A stretch of DNA of 64,000 bases, taken from assembly GCF_026684035.1 (NCBI RefSeq), contig NZ_CP113361.1, positions 1 through 64,000 on the forward strand. Reading direction: 5' to 3'. The position numbers were made by a program, and so were the translations under genes. The DNA is from Methanogenium organophilum. GTDB lineage: Archaea; Halobacteriota; Methanomicrobia; Methanomicrobiales; Methanomicrobiaceae. Positions 2,714-62,772 of the stretch are shown here, one piece after another. Under the pieces are notes generated by a model. That model was not told the DNA's origin. It did not search any database and saw only the letters and a list, made by a program, of their open reading frames with translations. Position 1 is the first letter of the stretch; each line of letters starts with the position of its first letter.

Positions 2714-3253
2714 TTTCCGCATTGCCAGTGCCAACGTCAGAACCGACACTCCCATCCGAGTGGTTTCGGTTCCCCATCAAAATCTTGGACTTCAATATTA
2801 GCGGCAAGAGGTGATAAACCCTCGCATTTCCCTCCGAAGTCCCGAAGACAGACCTCTGCACCGACCCGAAACGGTTCGGGCATGTACAAAGATCATATTT
2901 CTATGGTATCTGTATGCCTGCAGAGCAAACAAAGGCAGTATAGCCCCCGATTGTCACAGTCATTCGACCTAACTAAGTGGTAACTACCACACTATAATGA
3001 TTGTTATTTGCATCTAAAATCATTTAGGAGAAAAAAAGAAAATTCACATTATCAACTATACAAATCTAAGAACAAATTGAATCTGTTTTATCCATTAGAA
3101 TGAAATTATTGACCAGATATTCAGAATTGTACAGGATTATTTTTTGTCTACAGAAAAATCATTGTCACCAATACAAAATCAAATCAATCATTGAATTAAA
3201 GGGACAAATGAAATATTGTTAATAATTGCTTGAAATTTAAAAATACAGGACAA
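2714..3253 (-). promoter_or_regulatory. rRNA operon leader and promoter region; otherwise no gene
   Basis: There are about 270 nt of moderately GC-rich, hairpin-prone sequence (for example arms CCCGAA/TTCGGG at 2865-2880), then AT-rich DNA from about 2980 to 3253. A TATA-like ATTATAGTG on the minus strand at 2990-2998 could start the rRNA transcript, which would give a leader of about 350 nt before 16S. I compared the structured part with 5S, SRP and RNase P RNA motifs from memory and found no match. I see nothing in 3010-3253. Confidence 0.5.
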
Positions 3254-3988
3254 TTATTCATCGAATGCCTCTGCGCGCCATGTATCAATGTAAATATCTC
3301 CAAAAAATTCCTCCTGCCATATCATCAGTTTGCCTTCAAGCATCAAAAATAATAACGGGAGATAGACCACGCGGTAATCCTTATTCATCTCAGAACTCAG
3401 AGAGGAAAGTGTGACAGTTTTATCCCGTTTTGCCATCCTCTCAAAACAGGAATGTACAGATACTGTCAAATCCTGAAGATCTTCCTCATGGGCCACAGAA
3501 ACAATATCCCCGGCATCAAATACCACATCCGGAAACGCCCGCTTTTTGCGGGTACGCCGACGTTCCATTTTTTCAGCAGTCTTCAGTTCCTTGATGAGTT
3601 CATATAATGTGACAGGACTCTTTCGTTTCCCTTTTCTGCCAATTCTCCGCTTAATCTCTCGTTCAAGCTTTTCAATTGGTTCAGATATATCATCAAATGA
3701 AAAATCGATCCCGGCATCAAAATCATCAGTCAGATCAAACGATTCTTCAATGAAATCAGGTTCATCATCTTCAGTTTCTTCAAGATACTCTGATTTCATT
3801 CTCAGAAGAAGAGAGGCAAAAAAAAGAGTTCTTCCAGAAATCCTCAGATCCAGAGCCTTCATCCGTTCAAGCTCACCCAGAAACCGATCCGTCACCTCGA
3901 CAATATCAATGTTCCAGGGATCAATTTCCCCGGACTCAGCCATAGATACCAGAATCTCAACCGGCTCCTCATGCATTGCTTTTGACAC
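3254..3988 (-). CDS. scpA: Segregation and condensation protein A (kleisin ScpA)
   Basis: This 244-residue protein has the kleisin N-terminal pattern EEPVEILVSMAESGEIDPWNI..., which binds the Smc neck, then an acidic linker and a C-terminal winged-helix region that would close the Smc ring at the head. Known role: the non-Smc subunit of archaeal and bacterial condensin, acting on chromosome compaction and segregation. Its start overlaps the smc stop by 20 nt on the same strand, so the two are translated together. No scpB is in the window. Length and order (smc then scpA) are normal for euryarchaea. Confidence 0.93.
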   Translation of the reverse strand: MSKAMHEEPVEILVSMAESGEIDPWNIDIVEVTDRFLGELERMKALDLRISGRTLFFASLLLRMKSEYLEETEDDEPDFIEESFDLTDDFDAGIDFSFDDISEPIEKLEREIKRRIGRKGKRKSPVTLYELIKELKTAEKMERRRTRKKRAFPDVVFDAGDIVSVAHEEDLQDLTVSVHSCFERMAKRDKTVTLSSLSSEMNKDYRVVYLPLLFLMLEGKLMIWQEEFFGDIYIDTWRAEAFDE

Positions 3989-41286: not shown

Positions 41287-41358
41287 GCCGTTGTGGCTTA
41301 GAGGTATAGCGGCTGATTCGTAATCAGCAGGTCGGGGGTTCAAATCCCTCCAACGGCT
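41287..41358 (+). tRNA. tRNA-Thr (anticodon CGT)
   Basis: Complete cloverleaf: acceptor GCCGTTG with CAACGGC, anticodon loop TTCGTAA giving CGT, T arm GGGGGTTCAAATCCCTC and discriminator T. CCA is not encoded. It marks the change from dense core genes to sparse accessory DNA, so it is a candidate integration site; I found no second copy of its 3' end in the window. Confidence 0.97.
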
Positions 41359-42503
41359 TGGTTAGGGACAGTATTTAGTCCCAATTCAACTTTAAAGCTT
41401 TTTTTAAATTTATTGCATTTAAAGTATTAATTGTCAGATCGCCTATAAATAATGATCCGTTGACCAATGGATCCCCTTGTTCCAATCCAAAACCTGATGG
41501 GAAACCATGCGGCAAACCAAGATCATACCAATTAGTGACGGGAAAGAACATGAGATATCTGTCGAATGGGAATGCTCATTATGTGGGTGATTCAAAAAAT
41601 GCTGCTCAAATATCCTCACTGCGCCGTTTTTATAGCGAAAACGTAGATTTACAAGCGAATTATAGGGATTCTATTGCACACTTATTTTCAGTGGATATAT
41701 GCATCCAATGAATGGGAGAACGGGGACTCACGCGAAGATATGGGGATGATTTTTTTGCCTTCTTTCATTTCGATGGGTAACCACCCAATTATCCTGGTTT
41801 TGCATACCCATTCCGGCAATTTGCACTGGAAGATGTATAAGGGAAAACGGGACATCTTCACCATCGCCGTCATTCCCAAATCACTCAGGTATACGCATGC
41901 ATCTGAATCCTGTATTCATATCACTGGTATACAAGGGAATGTCAATAAGATACGCATCCGATGGTATGCATCTCACGAATACTATTCTGCCCTCCCATTT
42001 GCTTGTCCGGTATGGGTGTGCATTCCTGAATTTGATACACAAAGGAATGGTTCGTGTCCAGTGTGTATGAAAATCAATTCTCCCTGAACAAGGTAGTATT
42101 CTGGATATAGCCCTGTGGTTACCGGAGATGGACACGTAACGCATGAATGTATAATAATCAAATGGAAGGCATTCGGGCCGCGTCCGGGCGCGCGCCAATC
42201 TTTACCGTAGATATTGTTAGACCGAAACTGAAGTCTGAGCTGGTGTACGAAATTTAAACCGATGTCGATTTGAGTTTTACGAGTTGAGTCGATGATATCA
42301 AATCCTTCTGGATCTTTTCAATTGATGGGTCATCCAGTCAGATGTATCTGAATTTTATTTTTATTCTGATCGATATTAGTAACGAATGAATATGCCTATG
42401 CGAAATGGGGATATAGGGGCGGGCGGTAACACAACACCCTAGCTTTTTCTAAAAAACGCATTTTGGGAAAGTATATTTAGTATTAATTCAATCGTATCCA
42501 ATT
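41359..42503. other. Gene-poor accessory region, no confident gene
   Basis: This 1.1 kb has only short ORFs. The longest, 41674-42087 on plus (137 codons), has no recognisable domain and no ribosome site; another at 41460-41711 would start with TTG. Their stop-interrupted surroundings look like decayed sequence. A TATA-like AAGTATATTT at about 42470 serves the next gene. Confidence 0.5.
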
Positions 42504-43664: not shown

Positions 43665-43784
43665 TTGAGAAAATGGGCGGGAAAAGTCACCGAACACAAA
43701 ATACGAAAAAACTATTCTTACGCCACATTCCGGCTACCTGTCAATGAATCATTAGATATTGTCGAGGAAGGAGATCATCATTGA
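43665..43784 (+). CDS. Short open frame just upstream of the integrase, possible frameshifted N-terminus
   Basis: The 39-codon frame from TTG 43665 reads with natural-looking composition (KVTEHKIRKNYSYATFRL, then PVNESLDIVEEGDHH) and ends at TGA 43782-43784. The integrase frame is open from before this point and reads EDVPRGYNIRFIG right after. Removing one T near 43781 would join the two into a single protein. It is either a small separate gene or the true N-terminus of the integrase cut off by a 1-nt frameshift. Ribosome-site spacing is poor. Confidence 0.35.
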   Translation: MRKWAGKVTEHKIRKNYSYATFRLPVNESLDIVEEGDHH

Positions 43785-44814
43785 GGACGTACCCAGAGGT
43801 TATAACATTCGGTTTATTGGTTGTAACAATAGGGTAGAGGCGTTGCAACACGACAGCAGCGCCAATATTCTAAATGAACGGATGAATACGTTTGAAAATA
43901 AAATTGATAGATTAACAGATGCTATTTTAGAAAATGAAGGCAATATAACAGATAAAACAAAAATTCAGATTGACCGAGCGGAAATTGAACTCGCGGCCTC
44001 TAACATGCCATGGAATCTAAATTTAAGGCAGATATACCGTTCTTTTCAAAACGACTTTCATGAGTATTTGATCAATGTAAGAAATGTTGCCGAAAAGAAA
44101 GCAAGATGGTATCTTGGTTCTTTAAACAGAATGCCAGATATATACACCATTCAGGATTTCATATCAGCCAAATTCACCGAAAACGGCATAAAAGCGTTTA
44201 GAAATTTTATCCACTTCCTTGAAGACATCAAAGGATATTCCCAAATAAATGACATAACTCCTGAAAAATGGTTAAAGCCTGCCAAGGTCAAACAAAGCAG
44301 ACCAAAAATTACCTTCATCAATGTTAGTGATATTGTCGAAGTGTTTCATTATTGCCCGGACAATCTCAAAACGTTCTATAAACTTCTGACATATACAGGC
44401 GGAAGAGGTGAACACATCAAAAATATGATTGATACCTTTGAGCCTGACAGAATAATCACATCATATGAATTCCCGGATGTATCATATTATCCAACATCTG
44501 AATTAAGGAAAGGCACTAAGAACACATATTTTGTATTCTTTCCCACTTCCTTCATTGACGAATTAAAAGAATACAAAATGCCATACAATCACATTGAAAC
44601 CGTTTACAGCAAAGTAAGGCACAATAACGTAAACACAAAGAATATCAGAAAATGGCACGCCAATATGCTCTTTAAAGAGGGAACACAGGAAAGTGTAGTT
44701 GATTACCTGCAAGGAAGAACACCTCAAAGTGTTGTTGCAAAACATTACGCTAATCTGAATATGCAGGCGGAACGATGTTACCATTCAATATTGCCTAAAT
44801 TCAATATTGCCTAA
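43759..44814 (+). CDS. Tyrosine recombinase (archaeal integrase)
   Basis: This frame of 351 codons has a catalytic domain in the C-terminal half: box I arginine in YTGGRGEHIKNM, a basic box KNIRKWHANMLFKEG, then LQGRTPQSVVAKHYANL with the nucleophilic tyrosine. The N-terminal half (residues about 60-165) resembles a core-binding domain. Such enzymes integrate archaeal plasmids and viruses, usually into tRNA genes. The start is unclear: TTG at 43759 or ATG at 43882. Its last 15 codons lie in a 16-bp tandem duplication. Confidence 0.8.
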   Translation: MSRKEIIIEDVPRGYNIRFIGCNNRVEALQHDSSANILNERMNTFENKIDRLTDAILENEGNITDKTKIQIDRAEIELAASNMPWNLNLRQIYRSFQNDFHEYLINVRNVAEKKARWYLGSLNRMPDIYTIQDFISAKFTENGIKAFRNFIHFLEDIKGYSQINDITPEKWLKPAKVKQSRPKITFINVSDIVEVFHYCPDNLKTFYKLLTYTGGRGEHIKNMIDTFEPDRIITSYEFPDVSYYPTSELRKGTKNTYFVFFPTSFIDELKEYKMPYNHIETVYSKVRHNNVNTKNIRKWHANMLFKEGTQESVVDYLQGRTPQSVVAKHYANLNMQAERCYHSILPKFNIA

Positions 44815-44815
44815 A
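44784..44815 (+). repeat. Perfect 16-bp tandem duplication at the integrase 3' end
   Basis: TTCAATATTGCCTAAA occurs twice in direct succession (44784-44799 and 44800-44815). The integrase stop codon lies within the second copy, and the truncated metallopeptidase frame begins in it. Confidence 0.95.
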
Positions 44816-45100
44816 GTAGACAGTTACAAAGACCGATTCGAAGAAATACCCCGTGGTATCAGAGTGATAGATTTCAAATACCGGTGGAGATCCTGTTCAT
44901 CGAAGAATCACCTTAATTTTCACTGGAAGATCATCCTTGCACCAATGACTATTGTAGACTACATCGTAGTCCATGAGATGGCACATCTTATTGAAAAGAA
45001 CCATACACCCGAATTCTGGGAAATTATTGGTACCGTCCTTCCTGACTATGAACAGAGGAAGGAATGGCTTCGTAGAAATGGCAAATATTTGGATATATAG
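44807..45100 (+). pseudogene. C-terminal half of a YgjP/DUF45-type metallopeptidase
   Basis: These 97 codons hold RWRSCSSKNHLNFHWKIILAP, the zinc motif HEMAH (residues 56-60) and NHTPEFW with the third ligand, the C-terminal half of the DUF45 family. Normal members are roughly twice this length, with an N-terminal half that is missing here. The frame starts at a TTG inside the 16-bp duplication, overlapping the integrase end. It is most likely a gene truncated by the integration event; it could still be made from the TTG start. Confidence 0.7.
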
Positions 45101-45151: not shown

Positions 45152-46123
45152 CTATTTCGTAAATCCGTCAGATACTATTTCCGCAGCTTTAGAATAATGC
45201 TTTAACAATGTCAACTGGTTTCTTGTTCCCATGCGCATGAATATATTACAAATTCGATTTGACAAATATGGACTTGCAGATACCATTGCCTTTAATAATT
45301 CATTAGGAATCATCGGAGTATCCGGAACATTTGGTCCTGAATCAGCGACACAATGAGTTTTGCAATATCCACAAAAATGTTTCAGAAGAGGGTCTATTCT
45401 CTCTTTTTGTACTGGAGTTTTCGATATTACCTGATCAAATGAATTTAATTTTATAATATATTCAGCTGTGATATCCGGTACAAAATTATTATTTACCAAA
45501 TAGCCATTAAGAGAGAAACATACAATTCCAATTGTATTCATTAGGCATCTGGCCATTTTAAGGGGGTCTTCAATTTTCACTACATATGGCCTAGTTTTAT
45601 TATTGATACGAACATTTGATATTTTTTGATTTATGGATGCATATTCCCGTATGCATTCAAATTTCTTAGAATCGGTCATCAATTTATATGAAAATAAATT
45701 TCTGAACCAATCTGAGTCAATTACAATTTTTACTGACAAATAATCATTTTCATTATATTTATCCCGACTCGATTTTAGGCGCTCCTCAATCTCTGAATAA
45801 ATTGGATCAATGGATGATTTGTATAGTATTTTTCCATTAACCTCACTTTCTGAGATTAAATTTATTCCAATCAGAGTAGCAATATTCTTTTCAAAGGGAG
45901 AGGCATTGGCATGATACCATTTTTTAACTCCATAGAAGCCTTTTTCCGCATCATTTGCTGTTTTCTCTTCGATAAATGCACCATATACATTATCTTCAGT
46001 GAGATAAGTTGAACCCCTTTTGTTTTCATATTTAAATGTATCCAACACAATATGCAATATCTGTCGGATACTTGTTTTAAAGTATCCATTGATGATAGTA
46101 TTGGTGATTGGATGAGAGAACAT
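45152..46123 (-). CDS. Unrecognised accessory protein with a CXXCXXXC cluster
   Basis: This 323-residue, low-GC protein is not one I recognise. The N-terminal 110 residues look helical (FSHPITNTIINGYFKTSIRQILHIVLDTFKYENKRG...SPFEKNIATLIGINLISES) and could hold a winged helix. Near residue 265 is HFCGYCKTHC, a possible metal site. It has no signal peptide or membrane helices. The ATG at 46123 has AGAGGG upstream. Its start overlaps by 12 nt the start of the divergent RHH-like gene at 46112, so the two are unlikely to be translated independently of each other's regulation. Confidence 0.65.
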   Translation of the reverse strand: MFSHPITNTIINGYFKTSIRQILHIVLDTFKYENKRGSTYLTEDNVYGAFIEEKTANDAEKGFYGVKKWYHANASPFEKNIATLIGINLISESEVNGKILYKSSIDPIYSEIEERLKSSRDKYNENDYLSVKIVIDSDWFRNLFSYKLMTDSKKFECIREYASINQKISNVRINNKTRPYVVKIEDPLKMARCLMNTIGIVCFSLNGYLVNNNFVPDITAEYIIKLNSFDQVISKTPVQKERIDPLLKHFCGYCKTHCVADSGPNVPDTPMIPNELLKAMVSASPYLSNRICNIFMRMGTRNQLTLLKHYSKAAEIVSDGFTK

Positions 46124-46264
46124 GAAAAATCCCTCTGTTTCCAGATTTCGCCTCAGATTCACCAGAATTTCAAAATGGTGACGGTGAGAATCGGAAGAAC
46201 ACAGAAAGCTGTGTTGGTAGAGCTAATGGAACAATTCATCGATGAAAATGGATCAGGCAGATGA
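46112..46264 (+). CDS. Small ribbon-helix-helix-like protein
   Basis: This 50-residue protein (KSLCFQISPQIHQNFKMVTVRI, then GRTQKAVLVELMEQFIDE) has the strand-helix-helix pattern of CopG/Arc-type DNA-binding proteins. GGTGA lies 4 nt before the ATG. It heads three co-oriented genes (46338, 46505) and starts inside the divergent 45152-46123 gene, an arrangement suited to an autoregulator. The assignment rests on pattern only. Confidence 0.55.
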   Translation: MREHEKSLCFQISPQIHQNFKMVTVRIGRTQKAVLVELMEQFIDENGSGR

Positions 46265-46337
46265 GGGGCAAACGTTACCAGCGAAATCCCCCTCTCATCT
46301 GCAACCCCCAACATCAATCAAGAAGGAGGGTCAGACA

Positions 46338-46508
46338 ATGGTTAACGTAAAAGGTATTTATACTTCACGTAAAGTGAAAGCAAAAAAAGAGTGCATCGAA
46401 TCTCTTGACCCAATTGAGAGGATAATTTGTGAGTGTCTGATATCAATTGGCGATATCACAATTGAAAGTTCGGAAAAAGAGTCTTTTGCTGGTGGTGATG
46501 GTCAATGA
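46338..46508 (+). CDS. Small accessory protein of unknown function
   Basis: This 56-residue, Lys/Glu-rich protein (VNVKGIYTSRKVKAKKECIESLD, then PIERIICECLISIGDITIES) has a strong ribosome site, AAGGAGGG, 8 nt before the ATG at 46338. Its stop overlaps the next ATG (ATGA), so it is translationally coupled to the 434-residue gene. No family recognised. Confidence 0.65.
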   Translation: MVNVKGIYTSRKVKAKKECIESLDPIERIICECLISIGDITIESSEKESFAGGDGQ

Positions 46509-47809
46509 CAGTACCACCATATACTACTACTGCAAATGGTGAAGTTGAAAAGAACCCCGGATCAGGAGAATCCTATGACAAACCACCTTCTTTTGGATAT
46601 GAAAAATCTATTCTAAATGGTCTAAATCAAGATCCAGAATCATTAAGGTATGGTGATCACCCTTTTCAGACCTCATACGCGCCAGAATTTAATATAAAAG
46701 AGCAATGCAAGCTCTGTCCTTTCAAATACTCGAAATTTGAGCGTGACGCAATTCAATATGTCGTTATTGATCCCGTATTTCGCAATCTGCTTGAATTGTT
46801 AGCAACTCCAAATAAATGGAAAATCAAACGGAAAAAAAGAGATACATGGATATATCTGGATCATGTCACATTTCAACTCGGGAATGATTTTGTTGTTATC
46901 TATTCTGATGATCCGTATGATCTGAAGTGGATTGGTAACTGGGTCCGTGAGAATTTACAGGGTTATTATGTAGATATTGAAAAATTAGTTTCAAAAATTG
47001 TTCATCCACGGCTAATTTCACGAGATGAGCTTTCAATTGACATTACAGATCCGGAGATGATTCAAACTGTTGAAGGGTTAACTGAGAATTACAAAAACAA
47101 ATCCGGCTATTTAAGATTCAATTCACCGAATGAAGTAATTCCTGCTCTTAAAATTTACAGGAAAGACAAGGTCTTAAGAATGGAATTTATCTGTCATAGT
47201 GGATTTCAGACAACTTCTGTAATTGCAATCCGCAACAGGCTGCTTTACTGTCTGCAAAACATCTGCAAACAACCAGGGTGCCTCTATGATTTTCTGCATT
47301 CATACTATCCGACAGATATTAATTCTGATATTAAATGTTCAATCCAGAAAATAGAAACAGGACTGGATGAGTTAAAGCAGATGGTTAAATTATGTTCTCC
47401 GGAACCGGTAATTGCTAAAGGAAAAATCGGCACTGAGGCAAAGAATAAGGAAAAAATCAACGCTGTTATTGATTCAATCGATAAAGAAAACGTATCAATG
47501 GATAGTATATCCTGCAGGATATCGGAAATATTTGGAGTAACGAGAGAAGCGGCTATAGTTTTTCTAGCTGGTTTTCAGATCTGGGCTACGAGTATATACA
47601 GAAAAAGAGTCATGTTTGAGGATATATCAAGTCTATTTCTAAAACAGAGCTTACATAATATTTCGAAATTAAGTTGCATCAGAAGTGCTGCTAGAGAGTT
47701 AATAGCTGCCGGGTTGTTAAATGATGACCCTGAGCTGGATATCAGCTTTTCTTCTCAGGGTACCACTCTGGGTAAAAAACTCATTGCAAAGAAGGAGGGG
47801 ATAAAATGA
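46505..47809 (+). CDS. Unrecognised 434-residue accessory protein, possibly replication-related
   Basis: The protein is large and complete with an ATGA-coupled start. Residues 1-60 look disordered, with CKLCPFKY after. The middle (about 90-270) is a mixed alpha/beta domain with LKIYRKDKVLRMEFICHSG, which recalls the core of some plasmid replication proteins. The C-terminal 110 residues include a possible helix-turn-helix (MDSISCRISEIFGVTREAAI) and a winged-helix-like KLSCIRSAARELIAAGLL. I cannot assign a family. With a regulator and a nearby recombinase, a replication or maintenance role in an integrated element is possible. Confidence 0.65.
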   Translation: MTVPPYTTTANGEVEKNPGSGESYDKPPSFGYEKSILNGLNQDPESLRYGDHPFQTSYAPEFNIKEQCKLCPFKYSKFERDAIQYVVIDPVFRNLLELLATPNKWKIKRKKRDTWIYLDHVTFQLGNDFVVIYSDDPYDLKWIGNWVRENLQGYYVDIEKLVSKIVHPRLISRDELSIDITDPEMIQTVEGLTENYKNKSGYLRFNSPNEVIPALKIYRKDKVLRMEFICHSGFQTTSVIAIRNRLLYCLQNICKQPGCLYDFLHSYYPTDINSDIKCSIQKIETGLDELKQMVKLCSPEPVIAKGKIGTEAKNKEKINAVIDSIDKENVSMDSISCRISEIFGVTREAAIVFLAGFQIWATSIYRKRVMFEDISSLFLKQSLHNISKLSCIRSAARELIAAGLLNDDPELDISFSSQGTTLGKKLIAKKEGIK

Positions 47810-48078
47810 TTATAATGCCCCTATCTCTAATATATCCATTAATTCCACTGCATACAACTCCGAATGGGATTATTAAGGGAGTAAGACGATCTAGGAAAAT
47901 TATCAGGATTGAAAAAGAATCCAGGAGTAATTTGTAACCTTGGTTCTGAATTTAGAAAGTTTCCGTTTTGTTATATAACGGTAACATATTCTGAATTATC
48001 GATGGTTCTGAAAGGCAAATACCCACTTTCAACAGGTTAGTTTGAGAGTATTTTTACCATTTTAACAAAAAGGAAACT
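47810..48078 (+). promoter_or_regulatory. Promoter region of the second recombinase
   Basis: No gene. TTATATAACGGTAAC near 47974-47988 holds a TATA-like box about 95 nt before the ATG at 48079, and AAAAAGGAAACT precedes the ATG as a ribosome site. TGGTTCTGAA occurs twice (47941 and 48003). Confidence 0.4.
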
Positions 48079-48645
48079 ATGACGCTCTTAAAAGCAGACA
48101 CTCGTATTCTCACCCCCGTGGAATATACCAAAATTCGGAATGGATTAAAAAAACCGCACAAAATCTATTTTGATGGTCTAATGTTTACGGGAATGCGATA
48201 TGAAGAATATTTACGCTTTCTGGACAAACAGCAGTGGTTTTACCTGGAACGTTCAGCTATCCATCTCCCCCGTGAGGCATCATTGAAACAGAAACGGACG
48301 CAGCCTGAACGATATGTTCAATTGTCAAACTATGCCCTCCTTATTACTGAACGTCTGTTTGACCAGGAACTCCCAAGGTTGACCCGACAAGGCTGGAGAA
48401 AGGCCCTCCTGAAGGCCGCTGAGATGGCTGATATTTCGACCGATGGTATTACCCCTAAAATGACACGAAAGACATGGGAGTCATGGCTGGTGTGCTGCTA
48501 TCCGGCTCTTACGATGCAGATTGCACTGTCCCAGGGTCATACGAATATCACAGCAATGAATCATTATCTGAACCTTTCATTCAGCCCTTCGGAAAAAGAG
48601 GATATGAAGAAGTATGTTAATGGATTTGGCGGGGTTTCGATTTAG
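48079..48645 (+). CDS. Minimal tyrosine recombinase (catalytic domain only)
   Basis: This 188-residue protein matches just the catalytic part of tyrosine recombinases: box I R in MFTGMRYEEYLRF, the beta-hairpin K/R region KQKRTQPERYVQL, MTRKTWESWLV, then LSQGHTNITAMNHYLNL with GH and the nucleophilic Y. The N-terminal core-binding domain is absent. Short integrases of this kind occur in archaea and may be functional; a 5' deletion is the alternative. It has a good ribosome site and its own promoter. Confidence 0.8.
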   Translation: MTLLKADTRILTPVEYTKIRNGLKKPHKIYFDGLMFTGMRYEEYLRFLDKQQWFYLERSAIHLPREASLKQKRTQPERYVQLSNYALLITERLFDQELPRLTRQGWRKALLKAAEMADISTDGITPKMTRKTWESWLVCCYPALTMQIALSQGHTNITAMNHYLNLSFSPSEKEDMKKYVNGFGGVSI

Positions 48646-48897: not shown

Positions 48898-51111
48898 CTA
48901 TATTCTCAACGCAAACCACGCATCCCGCAGCCCTACGTTATATTGGGCGATGAACATGGCGTCTCCCACATCGATCACACTGTTTGTGTGGACGTCGGTC
49001 TTGGTGAACTGGTCAGTCCCAGGTGAAGGTTTCGGGGTGAAACCGACCACCTCCTTGAGCACCCGCAGGGTGTCAGCCTGGTTTACCTCTCCATCGTTAT
49101 TGGCATCACCAAGCAGGGGTGAAGTAACTATGATAAAGTCGGGCCGTGTGAAGGTGTCCTCACCTCCATTCACCGCGAGGGTGACCGTATAGGTGCCATC
49201 AGCAGTATAGACGTGTACCGGGTTTTGTTCGTCAGAAGTTGCGCCATCGCCGAAGGACCAGTGCCATTCCGTCGGCCCGCCGGAAGAGCGATCGGTGAAC
49301 TGCACAGTGAGGGGGGCAGTTCCACTGGTGACGCCGGCGGTGAAGGCCGCCACCGGTGCAGCAACCGAACCACTGCCCTCCAGTTTCACCACCCAGTAAT
49401 CACCGCTGCCATGGTTCCCGCTCACGTCGCCGTCGGTTGAAGTGGTATAACCAGCCACTGCGTATCCGCCGTCCACGGTCTGGACGATGCTGCGTGCATA
49501 ATCCCAACTGCTCCCACTGAGACACTTCTGCCACACTATGGTACCTGTGGAACTGAGCTTGACCACCCAGTAATCATATCCGCCATGGTTCCCGCTCACG
49601 TCGCTGTCGTCTGAATAGGTATAACCAGCCACTGCGTATCCGCCGTCCGCGGTCTGGACGATGCTGCGTGCGCGATCATCATTGCTCCCACCGAGACACT
49701 TCTGCCACACTATGGTACCTGTGGAACTGAGCTTGACCACCCATGAATCATAGCCGTTATGTTTCCCGCTCACGTCGCCGTCGGCTGATAAGGTATAACC
49801 AGCCACTGCATACCCGCCGTCCGTGGTCTGGACGGTGCTGTATGCATAATCATCACTGCTCCCACCGAGACACTTCTGCCACTCAATACCGGGGACCCCT
49901 CCAGAGGCTGCTAGGCTGGCATCCACAGTACTCGTTGTTCCTGCAGTCACTGAGACTGGTGTCGTGTAGTTCACGTAACCGGCCTTCGTCAGGGTCACCA
50001 CGTGGTTGCCGGCTGCAATATTGTTTGCGAGTAAGGCACAGCCGGGGTTGGTTGTACCATAGTAGATGCTGTCAACATAGACTGAGGCATACGACGGATT
50101 TGAGGAGATTGAGATAGAACCTGTGGTAGCCTGTGGGTCTGCAGTGAGTGTCGCTGTCACATAGCTAACCTGGTTTGCATGTATCTGGATAGTGTTTGCC
50201 CATTCCTGGTAGCCAGGCATGGTGATCTCAAGAGTGTGTACACCCTCGGAGATTCCGCTGATGGTCCGTGGGGCTGTACCCTTGTATGCACCATCCAGGT
50301 AGATGTTTGCATTGGATGGGGTGCTGGAAACAGAAAGCGTACCATATGTCACTTCTGCTGTCAGGGACGCATAGGTGGTCTGGGTCTGTCCAGCGACGAT
50401 GTTGATCGTATCCTGGTAGTCCTTATATCCTGAATAGGTAAGCCTCAGGTTGTTATTTCCAGCAGGGAGGTTTGAGACCGTTTGTGGGGTTGTACCATAG
50501 TATACACTGTTCACATAGACTGCTGCACCGGATGGGGTGCTGGAAACAGAAAGCGTACCATATGTCACTTCTGCTGTCAGGGACGCATAGGTGGTCTGGG
50601 TCTGTCCGGCGACGATGTTGATCGTATCCTGGTAGTCCTTATATCCTGAATAGGTAAGCCTCAGGTCATTGTTCCCTGCAGGGAGGTTGGATACTGTGTG
50701 TGGGGTCGTACCATAGTAAACACTGTTCACATAGACTGCTGCACCGGATGGTGAGGAGCTTACCTGGATGTTTCAGGTTGTGGGTGTATTTGGGTTTAAC
50801 GTCAGGTAGACAGACTGGTGTTCTCCCGGACTTGGTGTTGCTGGGAGAGACTGTGATGCAGACGAGTAGCCGGACTTTTCCGCCCTCACGGTGCTGTATG
50901 GAGCTGCGGTGGAATACACTCCGACACTCAGGACTCCACCTGTGGTTACTCCCTTGTATTCTCCGTCAAAGTAGATGGAACAGCCATCCACATTGGTGTA
51001 GACGTCATACCATCCCTGGTCACCGCCTATGGTGGTCGCAGCCAGTGCAGCAGGGACTGCAGCAGCGATGATGAGCATGCTTATGATAAGCACGTAAAAT
51101 TTTCGTACCAT
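48898..51111 (-). pseudogene. Exported PEGA / repeat / PKD / dockerin-like surface protein with an in-frame TGA
   Basis: One frame runs from ATG 51111 to the stop at 48898 (about 737 codons) and is broken only by a TGA at 50773-50775. Order: signal peptide (FYVLIISMLIIAAAVPAALA), a PEGA-like domain, then several PEGA repeats (two nearly identical 72-residue copies), three IEWQKCLGGSSDDYA-type propeller-like repeats, a PKD domain (TAPLTVQFTDRSSGGPTEWHWSFGDG) and a dockerin-like C-terminus (LGDANNDGEVNQADTLRVLKE). A Gly codon GGA changed to TGA would explain the break. The downstream part could only be made by readthrough or restart at a Met in a PEGA repeat. Confidence 0.8.
50341..50772 (-). 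repeat. Two tandem 216-bp PEGA-coding repeats
   Basis: The segments 50341-50556 and 50557-50772 are nearly identical. Each codes a 72-residue unit (PSGAAVYVNSVYYGTTP...NLPAGNN...SGYKDYQDTINIVAGQTQTTYASL). A recent duplication inside the surface-protein gene is the likely origin. Confidence 0.9.
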
Positions 51112-54712: not shown

Positions 54713-57700
54713 TTACTCAAATTTCAGCTCTGGCAACCCATCCACAATATCAACCGTCTGCACACTGACATTGATAACACTGAGAAGCAAATCTAAGATA
54801 TAACGGGGATTACCTACTTCTTTAGCCCAATCATTTGGGTCATTTGTAATTCCGCTGTCTTTATGAGTGCTTATCTGGTATCGTTCCATTATCCATTCAA
54901 CGGCACTTTTTCCATTTACTATGTATTGATATGCCTTGTCTGGTATTTCTGTAATTGAGATGGTATTGTTGTAGATGATAGTGTCCTTTTGGCCTTTTTT
55001 CGGGAATTTCATCTTATTAACTATGAAATATTCACCTTCAGTGCCCGTGACCTTCACATCAGAGCATGGTGGAACAGTCTCATAATTCAGGTGAAGATTT
55101 GCTAATTTTCGCCCAGCTTTGCTAAAACTCCAAAAATCGGTAATATTTTCAACTAAAGGTATTCTGGGGAGCATCTTTTTTAGGTCGTTTGAAAAGGTCT
55201 TGCGGTAATTAGGACAATGAAGTATGCCGTAAACATAATAAAATATGTCTTCTTTGGTTAAGCTGGATTCTCCATACTGCTTTTTCGCCTTTTCAAAAAT
55301 AAAATCACTTACCCCATCTCGCTTGATATATTTATTCAATGGTTCGGGTTCGTCTGCTTCAAAAATTGTTTTCTGAGACGGATTTATTTCTCTGTTTTTC
55401 TTATTTCCTAATTCTTCATAATAATACAGGGGAAAACATTGAGTGCCAGCGTCAAGGCAATTTAAATCTGGGATTGCATCAGTAATTAGAGCACTATTCT
55501 CTTTATTTCCTCCAATTCCCGATACGCAAATTACCTTATTTTCACTTTCCGAAGTAGGGTAAAGTTTAGGGATTTGATTAACCATATTATTTAACTGGCG
55601 ATTAAAATAGAGAAATTGCTTAAAAAATGGTCTATAAATACTTGTTTGAACCGAATTACTATCAAAAGTATATTTTTTTAGTTGATTAATGTCCTTTTTA
55701 TGTTCTCTTGTCCAGCCAAATTTTGTTGAATCGTAACAAATAAAATCTTCTGCAATTAATTTTTTATTTTGAGATTTCTTTAAGGAAAATACATCTACTT
55801 GAGAATTATAAAAATTAATAGTCTCCTTTATATTTTGAATTAATTCACTTTTTTTGGAATTATAACACCAAGCATCTTTAGATGTAGCCAAACCCCTCGA
55901 ATAAAAAGGTACAAAATATGATTTATTAGTATCATTCCCTTTTTTGTCTCCAATGGAGAGATATTCATTAAAGGCATTATTTCGCTGATTAATCCAGTCA
56001 CCTTCTTTATTTGGTGTTAGAATATCCCAATCCATTTCAGGATTCTCTACTGTCCCATATTTTTTAATGATTGTCAGCTTTTCTTCTCTATTTAGGTAAT
56101 CTCCAATATCATGATAATAGATGGTAGTTTTTTTATTGTTTTTTTGTGGGTTTTTAACGAGTAACGTTATAGATACCGTGGTTCTTGATCCAGAACCAAA
56201 TATTTTCCCTCCTTCTTTTCTACTTAACTCTCCAGAGGTTCGTTGGTTTCCTCGCAAATTAAAGACATAAATGCTGTTAAATTCTTTTTCCAAATTCTTT
56301 CTAAAGCCATCATGAGCATTACCATCAAGCCAACTACCATTGGAAACAAAACAGATTATACCACCATGATTTTCATCCAGCCTGTCAGATGACCAGCGAA
56401 AAGCCTTGATATAAGCATCGTATAATGACTGTTTTAAATTGGCAGATGAATCTTTGGCATAAGTGTCAGTAATGCGTTTTTCCAGAATTGGATATGACAT
56501 ATTCTGAGCATTATCATTAGCTGACTTCTGCCCAACTGAATAAGGAGGATTGCTCATTATCACCGTTATGGGTGTCTTTTGTTGGGCATTTACTCGTTCA
56601 CTATTTTTAGGGAAGAATTCAGAAATAAGGTGCTCACCTTCTTTGAACTCGCCCAACTGGAAAGTATCTGTTAAGCAAATGCCGTCAAAACTCTGGTATT
56701 CCTTTGTCTCTGGTAATAAATCGTGATAGGTATTTTCGATGTTGATGGCAGCGATATAATATGCCAGCAAAACGAGTTCGTTGGCGTGTATTTCACTCAA
56801 ATATTTGCGTTGTAAATCTTCAGGGTTTATCAGTCCACTTTGAAGCAATCTGGTGATGAATGTGCCAGTGCCGGTAAATGGATCAAGGATATGAACATTT
56901 TCGTCGGTAAGACTTCTATCAAATTCATTCCGCAAAACATCATCAACAGAATGCACAATAAAGTCCACCACTTCCACAGGGGTGTACACAATACCAAGCT
57001 GTTCGACCATCTTTGGGAAAGCGGATTTAAAGAATTTGTCGTAAAGCTCGACGATTACACGCTGTCTGCCCTCAGCATTATCGATATTAGATACCCTCAT
57101 TTTCACGGATTCATAGAAACTATCCAAGCTTTGAGTATCTTTTTCAATCGCCTGGGTTTCTAACAAATCAATCATTCGTTGCATTGATTTTGATATCGGA
57201 TTATGTTCTGCAAAGGAATAGTCTTGAAAAATAGCTTCAAAAACAGGTTTGGTTATCATATGTTGTGATAACATCTCAATAGCCTGTTCCCTGGTAATTG
57301 AGGGATTAATATTTTGCTGAAGTCCTGATAAAAACTCATCAAAAGTATCTTTGATATCCTCATTCTTTACCAGATTGTTTATGCGGCCTATTTGCTTTTC
57401 AGCAATATCTGCGACACTTTTAGCCCATTGTTCCCAATAAAGGCGGTCCCCAACTTTATTGACCATGCGGGCAAAAACCACACTTTGTAGCTCTTCAAAC
57501 TGCAATTGTAATTGTGTTTGTATGGTTTTGTCTCTCTCTTCATCTTCGACAAAAACAGGATTCCCCTTATCATCAAAGCTGATTTCAGGTCTTCCAACTA
57601 AAATATTGGTAGGTTTTTTCTTATTAAGATCAATCTTGTTAACCGTGGCATTAAAACGGTCATCATGAGCCCTGAGAGCATTTAAAACAGTCCAGACGAC

Positions 57701-59584
57701 TTTATATCGTGAATTATCATTTAATGCCCTTTCAGCAGGAATATCGCTTGGAACGATTACAGGGATAATTATGTAGCCATACTTTTTCCCTTCAGAAAGC
57801 CTCATTACACGACCAACAGACTGAACAACATCAATCTGAGAATTACGTGCAGATAAAAACATCACCGCATCTAAAGAAGGGACATCTACACCTTCACTTA
57901 AACATCTGACATTCGTAAGTATCCGGCACTCTTCACTGTCTTCTTTCAACCACCCTAATAAATTGTCGCGGGCTGTTGCATTCATCGTTCCATCAACATG
58001 GCGAGACTTCACATTGAGAATATTTTCTTGTATATCTTCAGGTAAATCGGCAATATATTTCTCAGGAACGTCATTGAAATTGACTGTAATTTCTTTGCTG
58101 ACTCTAATTGTTTGACAAAAGGCTACAGCCCTTTTCATTGGAAGAGGATCTGTCTCTTTTATAATTCCTTCGTCACCTAAGATCTGTTTTGATAAAGCAT
58201 TGACACAACCTATGAGCTTGGAAGCATCATCGGCACTTATTGAATGCTCATCGTCAGCCACCATTTTTTGTACAGATGGAGAAATATCCTTATCACTTAA
58301 AGTAAGAATTAACACCTTATAGTCGGCAAGTAATCCTTCATCCACTGCCTGACCAAAACCAATTCTGTACATCTCTTGCCCATACAGAGTTTCATCATCC
58401 ATGGAGCAGAGGACAGCATCGTGTGTATCCGCCTTACTTTTACTATCATCACTAAAAATACGGGGCGTGGCGGTCATGTAAAGGCGTTTTTTTGCCTTTA
58501 AAAATTCATTATCATGTACCTTTACAAAAGCAGATTCATCATTTCCAGCTAAAGTAACCCCTGTAGTACGGTGGGCCTCATCACAAACAATAAGATCAAA
58601 AATATTTCCCAGAATTGTTTGCGCCTTTGAAATTACATCTATGCTTTGATAGGTCGAAAAAACAACGGTAAGTCCATCGGTCCCGTTTTTTCCGATGTGT
58701 TCAAATTGTCTTATTATATTGTCAACATTAGTACTCGCTGGTAAGGCTAAGTTTACCACACTCGTAGTATCTATATCATTTTTTATGCCTTTCTTCTTTG
58801 AAACTTCAGTGTCAGAGCAGATACAAACGGCATTGATGGGTTCCTCAGCATCATAATACCATTCAGTTAAAGTCTGCCCCATAAGAGCAATAGAAGGAAC
58901 TAAGACCAGAATTAAGCCTTTACCCTCTGTTTCGTTCTCAGCAATTTTTAAGGCGGTGTATGTCTTGCCGGTCCCACAAGCCATAATGAGCTTTCCTCTA
59001 TCTTCCTCCAGAAAATGCTCATGAACATTATCCATAGCTTCTTTTTGATGAGGTCTAATCGTTTTTTTGGCTAGTCGTGCCTTAGGACCAAATATTCCTT
59101 TATCCAGACTTTCCCAGTCAATAGGAGCAGTTTCTAAATCAAGCAGATTAATCCGTGAGACAGGGGGATTCTGATTGTGTAGAGCTTCTTCAGCGTTCTT
59201 CCCCCATTTATTTGTTGTAGATATCCAAAGACGATGTGAAAATCTGACTTTTTCACTATTTCCTGTTGAAAATTCTCGACTCGATGTTGCTAAAAAAGAA
59301 TCTACATCTCCTTTGCTAATCGGAGTGTCTTCTTGATAGCATTTACACTGAATTGCCCAATATTCGTTATCTTTCGTTAAAGCAACAATATCAATACCTG
59401 TATCAGAACCACCAAGTTCATGTTTAAATGGGAATTCATTCCATAACCAAACCGTTTCAAATTTATTTTCATATATCGGGTTTGTTAGTAAGTATCCCTG
59501 CATAAGTCGTTCAAAGCGATTGCCTTTCTCAACTTCTGAAAAAGAGATATCCCGATGTTTGTTTAAGATGGTTTGGAATTTCAT
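54713..59584 (-). CDS. Single-chain restriction-modification enzyme (Type ISP-like: nuclease, helicase, N6-adenine methyltransferase, target recognition)
   Basis: This 1623-residue protein has in order: an Mrr-type PD-(D/E)XK nuclease (GGSDTGIDIV...WAIQCKCY, residues about 59-83), an SF2 translocase with Walker A MACGTGKT (201-208), DEAH (335-338) and helicase motif VI region VQSVGRVMRL, then a gamma-class methyltransferase with ILDPFTGTGTF and NPPYSVG, then a long C-terminal target-recognition part. This is the layout of LlaGI/LlaBIII enzymes, about 1570 residues. The whole R-M system is one polypeptide. GC is much lower than in the core genome, which supports transfer. The start at 59584 (MKFQTILNKH) is chosen by homology; 59656 is possible. 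Confidence 0.9.
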   Translation of the reverse strand: MKFQTILNKHRDISFSEVEKGNRFERLMQGYLLTNPIYENKFETVWLWNEFPFKHELGGSDTGIDIVALTKDNEYWAIQCKCYQEDTPISKGDVDSFLATSSREFSTGNSEKVRFSHRLWISTTNKWGKNAEEALHNQNPPVSRINLLDLETAPIDWESLDKGIFGPKARLAKKTIRPHQKEAMDNVHEHFLEEDRGKLIMACGTGKTYTALKIAENETEGKGLILVLVPSIALMGQTLTEWYYDAEEPINAVCICSDTEVSKKKGIKNDIDTTSVVNLALPASTNVDNIIRQFEHIGKNGTDGLTVVFSTYQSIDVISKAQTILGNIFDLIVCDEAHRTTGVTLAGNDESAFVKVHDNEFLKAKKRLYMTATPRIFSDDSKSKADTHDAVLCSMDDETLYGQEMYRIGFGQAVDEGLLADYKVLILTLSDKDISPSVQKMVADDEHSISADDASKLIGCVNALSKQILGDEGIIKETDPLPMKRAVAFCQTIRVSKEITVNFNDVPEKYIADLPEDIQENILNVKSRHVDGTMNATARDNLLGWLKEDSEECRILTNVRCLSEGVDVPSLDAVMFLSARNSQIDVVQSVGRVMRLSEGKKYGYIIIPVIVPSDIPAERALNDNSRYKVVWTVLNALRAHDDRFNATVNKIDLNKKKPTNILVGRPEISFDDKGNPVFVEDEERDKTIQTQLQLQFEELQSVVFARMVNKVGDRLYWEQWAKSVADIAEKQIGRINNLVKNEDIKDTFDEFLSGLQQNINPSITREQAIEMLSQHMITKPVFEAIFQDYSFAEHNPISKSMQRMIDLLETQAIEKDTQSLDSFYESVKMRVSNIDNAEGRQRVIVELYDKFFKSAFPKMVEQLGIVYTPVEVVDFIVHSVDDVLRNEFDRSLTDENVHILDPFTGTGTFITRLLQSGLINPEDLQRKYLSEIHANELVLLAYYIAAINIENTYHDLLPETKEYQSFDGICLTDTFQLGEFKEGEHLISEFFPKNSERVNAQQKTPITVIMSNPPYSVGQKSANDNAQNMSYPILEKRITDTYAKDSSANLKQSLYDAYIKAFRWSSDRLDENHGGIICFVSNGSWLDGNAHDGFRKNLEKEFNSIYVFNLRGNQRTSGELSRKEGGKIFGSGSRTTVSITLLVKNPQKNNKKTTIYYHDIGDYLNREEKLTIIKKYGTVENPEMDWDILTPNKEGDWINQRNNAFNEYLSIGDKKGNDTNKSYFVPFYSRGLATSKDAWCYNSKKSELIQNIKETINFYNSQVDVFSLKKSQNKKLIAEDFICYDSTKFGWTREHKKDINQLKKYTFDSNSVQTSIYRPFFKQFLYFNRQLNNMVNQIPKLYPTSESENKVICVSGIGGNKENSALITDAIPDLNCLDAGTQCFPLYYYEELGNKKNREINPSQKTIFEADEPEPLNKYIKRDGVSDFIFEKAKKQYGESSLTKEDIFYYVYGILHCPNYRKTFSNDLKKMLPRIPLVENITDFWSFSKAGRKLANLHLNYETVPPCSDVKVTGTEGEYFIVNKMKFPKKGQKDTIIYNNTISITEIPDKAYQYIVNGKSAVEWIMERYQISTHKDSGITNDPNDWAKEVGNPRYILDLLLSVINVSVQTVDIVDGLPELKFE

Positions 59585-59794
59585 GTTTTGTTCAAGTCCC
59601 TCAATAAAAGTAACTTTGACATCAACGTATATATGCACGAAGATTTGGTCAGGCAAAATATTTTCAGTTATTCTTACATTATTCGACGATACGGCAGCTG
59701 TTTTAGAATTCCGTGTCGCAGGCTGAAAAGATGCTGTGCAAATCAGGTTGTAACGCCATCACAGAGGGTATAACAGTGGAAAAAATGAGGGGTA

Positions 59795-60989: not shown

Positions 60990-61907
60990 TTAAATAATAT
61001 TTCCTAATATGCCCTCACTTATCATTTTTAGATTAAAAATGTAATTGTTGTGATTAAAACTCTCTTCTAATGGTCTTTTTGTCGTCAGCCAGCCTTTGCC
61101 ATCGGTAATCCAAATCAATTCGATATTTTGTTTCTGCAATTCATCGAACAATTGTCGAAATTCACCACAAACAGATTTTAATTTTGATCCGCCACCATTG
61201 TAGAAATTAGATTCGATAATAATGATATTCCCAGTTTTTTTGTTATAAATAGCAAAATCAAACTTACGAGACGATTTCTCATACTTAATTTTTTTTCCCC
61301 ATTTTTGCATAATCTTCTGTGGCGTGGCTTCAGATAGATAATCCAAATTTTTATTTTTTTGAACGAAATCTAAAATAAATACCTCTAAGATATTTTCCAT
61401 CAATTTCCCTCCTCGATTCTTTCTTCCATTTGAGTCGAGGCCTACTTCCACGCCAAAGGTATAATCAACAAAATTTTTGATTTTTTCACCACTGAACAAA
61501 TCAATTAATCCACTTTGTTCTATGAAATTGAAGTATTTCGCTGCTGATGAATAATCCAGAGAGGCCTTTTGGGAAAAATCGAACTCTAAGTATGACATAT
61601 CATTATTTTGGTAATCCTTTATTATTTGAAGTGAATTCTCTCTTACCGCTAATATAATCGGTAAAACCTTTATTGTGTTAGGATATTTACGAACTAGATT
61701 TATGAAATCATTTTCAAGATTTCTCGAACCAATAAGAGAATTTAAGATATTCAATTCAACTTTAATATCCACCATGTTTCCATTGACTTTTTCCCAATTA
61801 ACGAAATAATCCCATACTTTGATTGATGGTTTTAAATTTTCGAGGAAAAATGTAAATGTTTCAGATTCTTGGACATTATTCTCTCTATAGTAAGGTATGT
61901 ATTTCAT
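60990..61907 (-). CDS. DpnII-family Type II restriction endonuclease (predicted GATC cutter)
   Basis: This 305-residue protein has the DpnII family layout: VEVGLDSNGRKNRGGKLMENIL in the middle, then the nuclease core KFDFAIYNKKTGNIIIIESNFYNGGGSKLKSVCGEFRQL with the D...ExN-type site. Family members cut GATC. It overlaps the methyltransferase gene by 23 nt and follows it on the same strand, so the protective methylase is translated first. Very low GC. Confidence 0.92.
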   Translation of the reverse strand: MKYIPYYRENNVQESETFTFFLENLKPSIKVWDYFVNWEKVNGNMVDIKVELNILNSLIGSRNLENDFINLVRKYPNTIKVLPIILAVRENSLQIIKDYQNNDMSYLEFDFSQKASLDYSSAAKYFNFIEQSGLIDLFSGEKIKNFVDYTFGVEVGLDSNGRKNRGGKLMENILEVFILDFVQKNKNLDYLSEATPQKIMQKWGKKIKYEKSSRKFDFAIYNKKTGNIIIIESNFYNGGGSKLKSVCGEFRQLFDELQKQNIELIWITDGKGWLTTKRPLEESFNHNNYIFNLKMISEGILGNII

Positions 61908-62772
61908 CTGTTTTCACCGGATAATTAGTAACAATGACTTCTGTCACTCCAGTTCTTTTACTTGCGTCACTATTTATTGATCGATTTGCTCGTATTACTG
62001 AGATATTGAAGTCCCCATAGAGTTCATGGATGGCTGGTGCATCAGAATTACTCAGCATTACAGAAACCCCTTTTTCGGCAAGGCGTTTATATGTTTCAGC
62101 AAGTCTTACCTGATCGTCATAAGAGAAACCATTTGAGGTGTAATTAGTAAAATGTGCTGTATCAGATAGAGGCATGTAAGGCGGATCGAAATATACAAAA
62201 TCCCCTTCCTTTGCATCAGCAACTACAACCTCAAAATCTTCATTCCGAATATTTACTTTCTGGAATAACTGACTCAAGCCATGAATCATTTTATTGTCAG
62301 CCAATTTGGGGTTTTTATATCGACCAAAAGGCACATTGTAGTTATTTTTTTTATTGACACGCCAAAGACCGTTGAAACAGTGACGATTTAAATAAATAAA
62401 AATTGAAGCGCGTTCAATATCAAATTCATCTTTGGCTTTTATTTCATTGAAGTGATCACGGAACTGGTAAAATATTTCTTGGTCATTTTGATATTTCCCC
62501 GATTGTAGTTCCTGAAGGAGATCTTCGGGCGATTTTTTAATTACATTATATAAATTAATTAATTCCAAATTAATATCTGAAATTATCGCTTTGTTGATTT
62601 TTTTAGAATTATTCAATTCAATTAGTAAAGCAGCACCACCAATAAATGGTTCATAATATACATCCCAATTTATTGGCAATCTTTTTACAATTTCGGGAAG
62701 TATTTGCCGTTTTCCGCCTGCCCATTTAACTACCGGTCGTAGCATCACAAATAAGGTTATCCTTGAATCCAT
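61885..62772 (-). CDS. Dam-type DNA adenine methyltransferase (predicted GATC)
   Basis: This 295-residue alpha-class N6-adenine methyltransferase has the SAM motif PVVKWAGGKRQIL, YYEPFIGGAALLIEL, the catalytic DPPY (GDFVYFDPPYMPLSDTAHFTNYT) and the Dam-specific RHCFNGLWRVNKKNNYNVPFG. Paired with a DpnII endonuclease it would protect GATC sites. The start is at 62772, or 62745 if the first nine residues are not made. Confidence 0.94.
   Translation of the reverse strand: MDSRITLFVMLRPVVKWAGGKRQILPEIVKRLPINWDVYYEPFIGGAALLIELNNSKKINKAIISDINLELINLYNVIKKSPEDLLQELQSGKYQNDQEIFYQFRDHFNEIKAKDEFDIERASIFIYLNRHCFNGLWRVNKKNNYNVPFGRYKNPKLADNKMIHGLSQLFQKVNIRNEDFEVVVADAKEGDFVYFDPPYMPLSDTAHFTNYTSNGFSYDDQVRLAETYKRLAEKGVSVMLSNSDAPAIHELYGDFNISVIRANRSINSDASKRTGVTEVIVTNYPVKTDEIHTLL

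Follow-up and report, generated by a model that had tools for sequence, protein, structure and literature searches.

A four-gene cassette in the first 64,000 nt of the single 2.65-Mb contig of Methanogenium organophilum (hereafter the window; the genome is G000, with G labels used for the genomes compared and L labels for stretches of DNA) is probably the replication and control core of a small plasmid- or provirus-like element integrated beside a tRNA-Thr gene, and the largest of its products, P0004, would be the rolling-circle initiator of that element. The arrangement goes beyond chance, because P0004 belongs to a conserved family and the order of P0003, P0004, and a small tyrosine recombinase (the mini-integrase) recurs in two other genomes. 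The description as a replication/control module suits the four genes better than that as a generic cassette. All four open reading frames (ORFs), P0001 to P0004, are intact and lie where the initial annotation of this DNA had placed them (Table 1). Also confirmed were the cysteine cluster of the minus-strand protein P0001 (HFCGYCKTHC, C-x2-C-x3-C), the 12-nt head-to-head overlap of P0001 and P0002 at 46112-46123, the ATGA coupling of P0003 and P0004 at 46505-46508, and the presence of recombinases on both sides (PF16795 at 43759-44814 and PF00589 at 48079-48645). The size of the P0001/P0002 overlap hinges on the choice of starts, the longest ORFs beginning at a GTG at 46162 (336 aa) and at an ATG at 46052 (70 aa), respectively. 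The larger proteins had been said to match no known family, and the protein libraries indeed gave no confident match and a name for none of the four. As for the description of P0002 as a ribbon-helix-helix (RHH)-like protein of 50 residues, the plus-strand ORF was found, whereas the RHH label gained no support from hidden Markov models (HMMs), with no Pfam match at E<=1 and weak matches in PHROG (E 0.031) and NCBIfam (E 0.063-0.11).

A single-sequence search with P0004 gave matches in 8 of 100 relatives, and a profile search matched 15 of the 232 genomes used in the class-level searches; in ten of these genomes the match takes in the central domain, while in five it is confined to N-terminal helix-turn-helix (HTH) or C-terminal pieces. 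When a 15-row profile was run against 392 genomes of the phylum, 24 of them matched, seven with the central domain (all Methanomicrobiales) and the remainder with HTH or winged-helix pieces. The gene is also carried by G047 and L019 (Methanocorpusculum petauri). Relatives were located on seven IMG/VR viral contigs, and a repeat scan returned the same seven. Three of them (L022, L023, and L052) carry a large terminase gene as well, accompanied in L023 by portal-like and minor-head-like proteins. An antirepressor gene adjoins the P0004 relative in two viral contigs (L020 and L053) and in one genome (L030), and PCNA is encoded about 4.5 kb from the relative in L051. A single-sequence scan of the viral contigs showed no relatives of P0004, and no match was found in the "phages" or "plasmids" records. 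Some of the longer relatives carry an N-terminal HTH (HTH_11 in four of nine), which P0004 lacks, and in a tree of the catalytic domain, P0004 groups with the members from L009 and L031 in a single clade (support 0.98/0.999). Similarities to AbiTii (Pfam E 0.025, in one family member only) and to MuDR (E 0.14) were below the cut-off and were discarded. No published work on this family in Methanomicrobiales was found by title or abstract.

The order of genes around P0004 is conserved in part. Stretch L031 (genome G213) showed a divergent gene (3003-3977, running off the stretch), an HTH_17 protein (2755-3024) that occupies the same slot as P0002 and whose longest-ORF call shares 22 nt with the divergent gene, head to head, a P0003 homolog (2470-2754; 52% over 42 aa, E 1.8e-13), a P0004 homolog whose start overlaps the latter, a 65-aa ORF, a zinc-finger gene (623-961; 38% over 81 aa to the zinc-finger protein of the window, E 3e-18), and a mini-integrase of 190 aa (E 2e-77 to the window copy). 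Stretch L009 (G013) presented a XerD-like integrase, a minus-strand gene, a small P0003-like gene (E 0.001 to the L031 homolog and 0.15 to P0003), a P0004 homolog, and the mini-integrase. Conservation of the gene order, which the initial annotation had put forward as a check, was therefore found for P0003, P0004, and the mini-integrase in G213, with a weaker link for P0003 in G013, whereas P0001 differs. The mini-integrase was present in 13 of the 232 genomes at 14 places, and its surroundings were viewed for 13 of these places (G204 left out). A replication gene was found within about 4.5 kb at six of them: a P0004-family gene in the window, L009, and L031, a D5 helicase in L104 and L101, and an NrS-1 polymerase HBD/DUF3987 gene in L105. 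Since D5 or NrS-1-type genes replace P0004 beside the same mini-integrase, P0004 appears to fill the slot of a replication gene; this replacement is the main contextual argument for P0004 being a replication protein. The R-K-R-H-Y active site of the mini-integrase (R40, K70, R130, H154, and Y163) is invariant in the 11 copies aligned (L101, partial, L106, with no ORF call, and G204 left out), with the usual H of HxxR replaced. A second copy with 86% identity was observed in the same genome (L098 5968-8214; G000:C1 ~2251968-2254214), adjoining the genes of a CBASS-like pair (a SMODS/Mab-21 nucleotidyltransferase with a SLATT_4 protein).

The alignment of 15 P0004 sequences, with pairwise identities of 25-98% (median 39%) in the central domain, showed residues D81, D89, D128, P137, W146, E175, P213, Y218, R225, E227, and R243 to be invariant in all 15; no His is invariant or near-invariant in these rows, so that the conserved His-hydrophobic-His motif of HUH rolling-circle Reps is missing. 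The AlphaFold2 model of full-length P0004, built from nine sequences, had a mean predicted local distance difference test (pLDDT) of 66.6, with residues 1-82 and 272-309 below 50. Modelled alone, the central domain reached a pLDDT of 86.7 and is bilobed, with strands (b) and helices (a) in the order b-a-b-b-b-b-a and then b-a-b-b-b-a. The two halves of the TATA-binding protein (TBP) have this same secondary-structure order. Tyr218 and Glu227 are placed on neighbouring strands in lobe 2 (214-220 and 223-229). Asp89 comes after the opening strand of lobe 1, and Glu175 before that of lobe 2. Nine TBP chains were among the 50 matches listed for the central domain by VIA-align (Z 4.5-5.2 over 151-156 residues, root-mean-square deviation (rmsd) 6.4-8.0 Å), including the archaeal 2z8u and 1mp9 (Z 5.2) and 1ais (Z 5.1), with archaeal TBPs aligned across 152-156 out of 195 residues. 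Also listed were RnlA and RNase HIII, the latter matching a single lobe (about 65 residues at an rmsd of 2.5-3.1). RepD/RepDE was not among the 50 matches listed, which excludes nothing, and a sequence search of the PDB with family profiles gave weak, mostly generic matches only. Residues 326-434 matched MarR, MntR, and OhrR winged helices (Z 8.0-9.3 over 69-93 residues, rmsd 2.0-4.3). For the full model, the top match in BFVD was A0A2N9QVX7 (E 2e-3), a viral TBP named as a match of the rolling-circle Rep RepSNJ2 (PMC13107129). Altogether, the models support but do not prove a TBP-like fold of the central domain.

One of the closest known systems is Rep-Arvir (RepSNJ2 of the pleolipovirus SNJ2; DUF7845/PF25227), described in 2026 (NAR 2026, gkag363; PMC13107129). 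As described there, this is an initiator of archaeal viruses and plasmids in which a TBP-like catalytic domain is followed by a MarR-like winged helix, a succession that the models of P0004 also suggest, and the likeness extends to a K-x-Y around the conserved tyrosine, to acidic residues, and to an integrase-linked gene. RepSNJ2 has Y283 (in KHYYM) with E25, D207, and E303, of which Y283, E25, and E303 are essential, and RepDE has Y191 with D46, D142, and E214 (PMC13107129); the Tyr/acidic pattern of P0004 would fit both, as far as the descriptions of these residues go. By the same description, P0004 differs from Rep-Arvir in the size of the catalytic domain (about 190 versus about 300 aa) and in the Tyr-to-Glu spacing (9 versus 20), its winged helix is C-terminal with no further domain, unlike that of Rep-Arvir, and most relatives add an N-terminal HTH. 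Rep_trans (PF02486; RepD/RepDE, NicK) is likewise credited with a TBP-like core (PMC13107129). Both P0004 and Rep_trans have a strand with the catalytic Tyr, putative in P0004, and then a strand with an acidic residue. An R-x-E is presumably a further similarity between them. P0004 differs from Rep_trans in being fused to a winged helix and in having relatives, within the searches made, only in Methanomicrobiales genomes and viral contigs. None of 246 genomes of the phylum rose above the cut-off for PF02486, a Bacillus subtilis control being above it, P0004 had no PF25227 match at E<=1, and neither PF25227 nor PF02486 matched in genome G000. The candidate Rep of phage Pf1 (orf 430), considered as a yardstick for Rep_trans, showed no Pfam match. 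We think that P0004 would work like Rep-Arvir and Rep_trans, judging from this comparison, but it cannot be recognised as belonging to one or the other family.

Several results weigh against P0004 being a TBP-fold rolling-circle initiator. Guanidino kinases equalled the Z-scores of TBP, METTL16 KA1 exceeded them (Z 6.4), the rmsd to TBP is 6.4-8 Å, and no Foldseek match attained E 0.001. Neither PF25227 nor PF02486 was among the matches listed (best 25 of 35 families) for nine family members at E<=10, and hhalign of the catalytic domains against DUF7845 gave a probability of at most 0.2%; the DUF7845 set comprised 24 proteins, or five shorter ones, 13 of 37 DUF7845 loci having been dropped for want of a usable ORF. 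The full-length hhalign comparison was discarded, as it aligned only the N-terminal HTH of the family to the DUF7845 winged helix. Motif III of Rep_trans, YxxK, is missing in P0004, which reads Y218-R-K-D, and the K at Tyr+3 is missing in the aligned relatives too. Finally, no origin hairpin common to the window, L009, and L031 was detected in the stretches folded, and neither a right border nor a circular form of the element was found.

If P0004 is a rolling-circle initiator, the winged helix at its C terminus would bind the origin of the element, and its bilobed TBP-like domain would nick one strand with Tyr218, with Asp89, Glu175, and Glu227 binding metal; the protein would stay joined to the 5' end, and the 3' end would prime rolling-circle copying. 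P0002, presumably expressed from the divergent promoter region, and P0003 may be small control partners of the Rep operon, and the mini-integrase could serve integration and excision or multimer resolution, with or instead of the SSV-type integrase.

P0004 could also bind and melt the origin without nicking it, in a theta-type mode that recruits a host helicase, with the TBP-like domain as an architectural DNA binder. TBP itself only bends DNA, the winged-helix matches include a chain of the ORC/Cdc6 complex (7jgs_B, Z 7.5), and PCNA is encoded on the contig of a viral relative. We nevertheless consider this mode unlikely, as a Tyr and several acidic residues, none of which varies across the 15 sequences, resemble an active site and are more than DNA bending needs. 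The same enzyme-like residues make it distinctly unlikely that P0004 is a viral or plasmid transcription factor for early genes, with a TBP-like core and winged helices, instead of a replication protein; the TBP-like fold matches of the central domain, the N-terminal HTH of longer relatives, and the antirepressors adjoining relatives in viruses would suit such a factor, whereas the finding of D5 or NrS-1-type replication genes in the place of P0004 next to this mini-integrase would not.

Two further explanations deny the cassette a role in replication or any common role, and both seem very improbable. One is a toxin-antitoxin or defence cassette, with P0001 as effector, P0002 as antitoxin or regulator, and P0003-P0004 as a second unit, for which it may be said that a small DNA-binding-like gene adjoins a divergent gene and that in L017 a 70-aa ORF, DUF2281-like by eye, follows the P0001 relative. 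However, P0001 is not conserved together with the other three genes, the relatives of P0004 are viral, and no PADLOC family matched P0001, P0004, or the mini-integrase at E<=1; with this negative result and no defence-like pattern, the earlier suggestion of a new defence cassette was rejected. The other holds that decayed, unrelated genes were gathered by repeated insertions with no functional unity. A YgjP half-gene and a second integrase do lie inside the element, and in G006, which showed no P0004 relative in the profile search, the mini-integrase stands together with the terminal part of the adjacent PEGA gene, both inverted, about 12 kb downstream of the same tRNA-Thr. Against this stand the four intact frames and the recurrence of the order P0003, P0004, and mini-integrase in G213 and, more weakly for P0003, in G013.

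The strongest hairpins among those folded were two inverted repeats, at 46066-46087 and 46257-46302 (Table 1); as neither was seen in the stretches of L009 and L031 that were folded, both remain no more than candidates. The former is unique in the window and lies 25 nt upstream of P0002, within the coding end of P0001; 24 inverted repeats of similar or larger size were counted in 7.5 kb. Its TTTTAAAG stretch stands at the spacing expected of an archaeal TATA box for a leaderless P0002 transcript. The hairpin at 46257-46302 is the stronger one; it had a z of -2.5, and 2 of 200 shuffles were as good. A sigma-70 promoter scan, with a model not apt for archaea, showed no excess over shuffles. The Rep-Arvir origin is described as a hairpin and an inverted repeat downstream of rep (PMC13107129). 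The region downstream of P0004 (47935-48020) folds weakly (z -1.2 to -1.8), and the palindrome at 47989-48012 was rejected as an origin hairpin for its weak fold.

P0001 is the least conserved part of the cassette. Its relatives were found in four other genomes (5/232 including its own) with identities of 27-33%, located elsewhere in chromosomal surroundings, and the Cys cluster is not kept in the alignment of the three relatives extending that far (L017, L107, and L109). No similarity was detected between P0001 and the minus-strand genes of L009 and L031; these two genes have no more than a treble-clef end in common. No relatives of P0001 were found in viral contigs (single-sequence scan) or in plasmid or phage records. 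Our best guess is that P0001 would be an exchangeable accessory gene of the element. Near its relatives in L017, L108, and L109 (L109 5209-7857), a histone-deacetylase-like and/or a von Willebrand-A gene was observed, possibly a conserved chromosomal neighbourhood; these neighbours were called by eye, and the one von Willebrand-A gene run against an HMM was below the cut-off.

The cassette is embedded in DNA of low GC content, 0.32-0.39 across 43.5-48.0 kb, compared with 0.48-0.57 at 38.0-40.5 kb and 0.46-0.59 at 49.0-52.5 kb. DNA synteny with the same-genus genomes G006, G001, and G003 breaks at 41359, the 3' end of tRNA-Thr, and beyond it the gene content is different in each of the three; the end of this tRNA gene is therefore the probable left border and insertion point of the element. 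A search allowing up to 3 mismatches revealed no second copy of the tRNA-Thr 3' end in the window that could be a right attachment site, and the right border was not located, the right-flank DNA search being dominated by repetitive matches. The integrase at 43759-44814 carries the C-terminal PF16795 domain, and directly behind it lies the 3' half of a YgjP-like gene, whose 5' half was not found nearby and of which two full copies exist elsewhere in the genome. The element thus resembles SSV-type integrated archaeal elements in its intact PF16795 integrase and its insertion beside a tRNA gene, and differs from them in that no direct repeat of the tRNA end was found and in the second, catalytic-domain-only integrase tied to the Rep. 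With relatives in viral contigs and integrated elements, flanking recombinases, low GC content, and the tRNA-Thr insertion point, the earlier proposal of a mobile element core was supported.

Table 1. Features of the predicted element and its left border (window coordinates)
Feature	Position	Strand	Remarks
tRNA-Thr(CGT)	41287..41358	+	Probable left border/insertion point; synteny break with three same-genus genomes
C2H2-type zinc-finger protein, 117 aa	42504..42857	+	zf-C2H2 E 6e-4, below cut-off
SSV-type tyrosine integrase, 351 aa, intact	43759..44814	+	PF16795 Phage_integr_3 E 4.4e-33; PHROG 5127 E 1.1e-36
YgjP-like metallopeptidase remnant, 3' half of gene	44807..45100	+	PF01863 positions 119-207 of 207
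P0001, 323 aa, putative divergent accessory gene	45152..46123	-	ATG at 46123, stop at 45152
Perfect 8+8 nt inverted repeat with TTTTAAAG stretch	46066..46087		z -3.2; candidate operator/TATA
P0002, 50 aa, putative DNA-binding regulator, RHH-like by eye	46112..46264	+	
12-nt inverted repeat, 92% complementary, P0002-P0003 gap	46257..46302		Candidate terminator or origin hairpin
P0003, 56 aa, conserved small protein ahead of Rep	46338..46508	+	
P0004, 434 aa, predicted TBP-fold replication initiator	46505..47809	+	Catalytic-like domain ~83-267, winged helix ~330-431
Mini-integrase, 188-aa catalytic-domain-only tyrosine recombinase	48079..48645	+	PF00589 28.6 bits, cut-off 27.1

Genomes G016 and G011 showed repeated pieces of about 330-400 bp from the 3' end of rep, with identities of 72-84%, and in all four pairs with the full-length gene of G016 the match ends within one base of the stop codon. 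These copies alternate with cargo in L011 (4871-9802) and L015 (6982-12089). The cargo between the copies of L011 includes a HamA-like gene (E 7e-4, below the cut-off) and a 1053-aa DEAD helicase, a pairing which we take to resemble Hachiman. That the copies stop at the stop codon, with cargo between them, suggests a docking site for cassettes at this point, and L011 and L015 look as though defence cassettes had accreted step by step at the 3' end of rep. The rep 3' end of the window is single-copy, with no such repeat array.

More tentatively, P0004 may found a third family of TBP-fold rolling-circle initiators, unrecognisable by sequence, beside Rep_trans and Rep-Arvir, present in small integrated plasmids and terminase-encoding tailed viruses of Methanomicrobiales, with the rep 3' end as a docking point for defence cargo. 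To our knowledge, how viruses and plasmids of Methanomicrobiales start DNA copying is largely unknown. If P0004 is indeed a TBP-fold Rep, the kind of archaeal initiator described in 2026 would extend to elements missed by its sequence models, an unnamed protein on methanogen virus contigs would be explained, and the compact replicon could become a base for vectors in methanogens that are hard to manipulate.

Further along the window, a PEGA/PKD surface protein gene with tandem repeats of 174 and 216 nt was located at 48898-50743. In addition, two restriction-modification systems were observed: a single-polypeptide type ISP enzyme (Mrr_cat_2, ISP_coupler, and Type_ISP_C) at 54713-59656, and a type II pair formed by a DpnII-type endonuclease and an adjoining D12-class adenine methyltransferase at 60990-62772.

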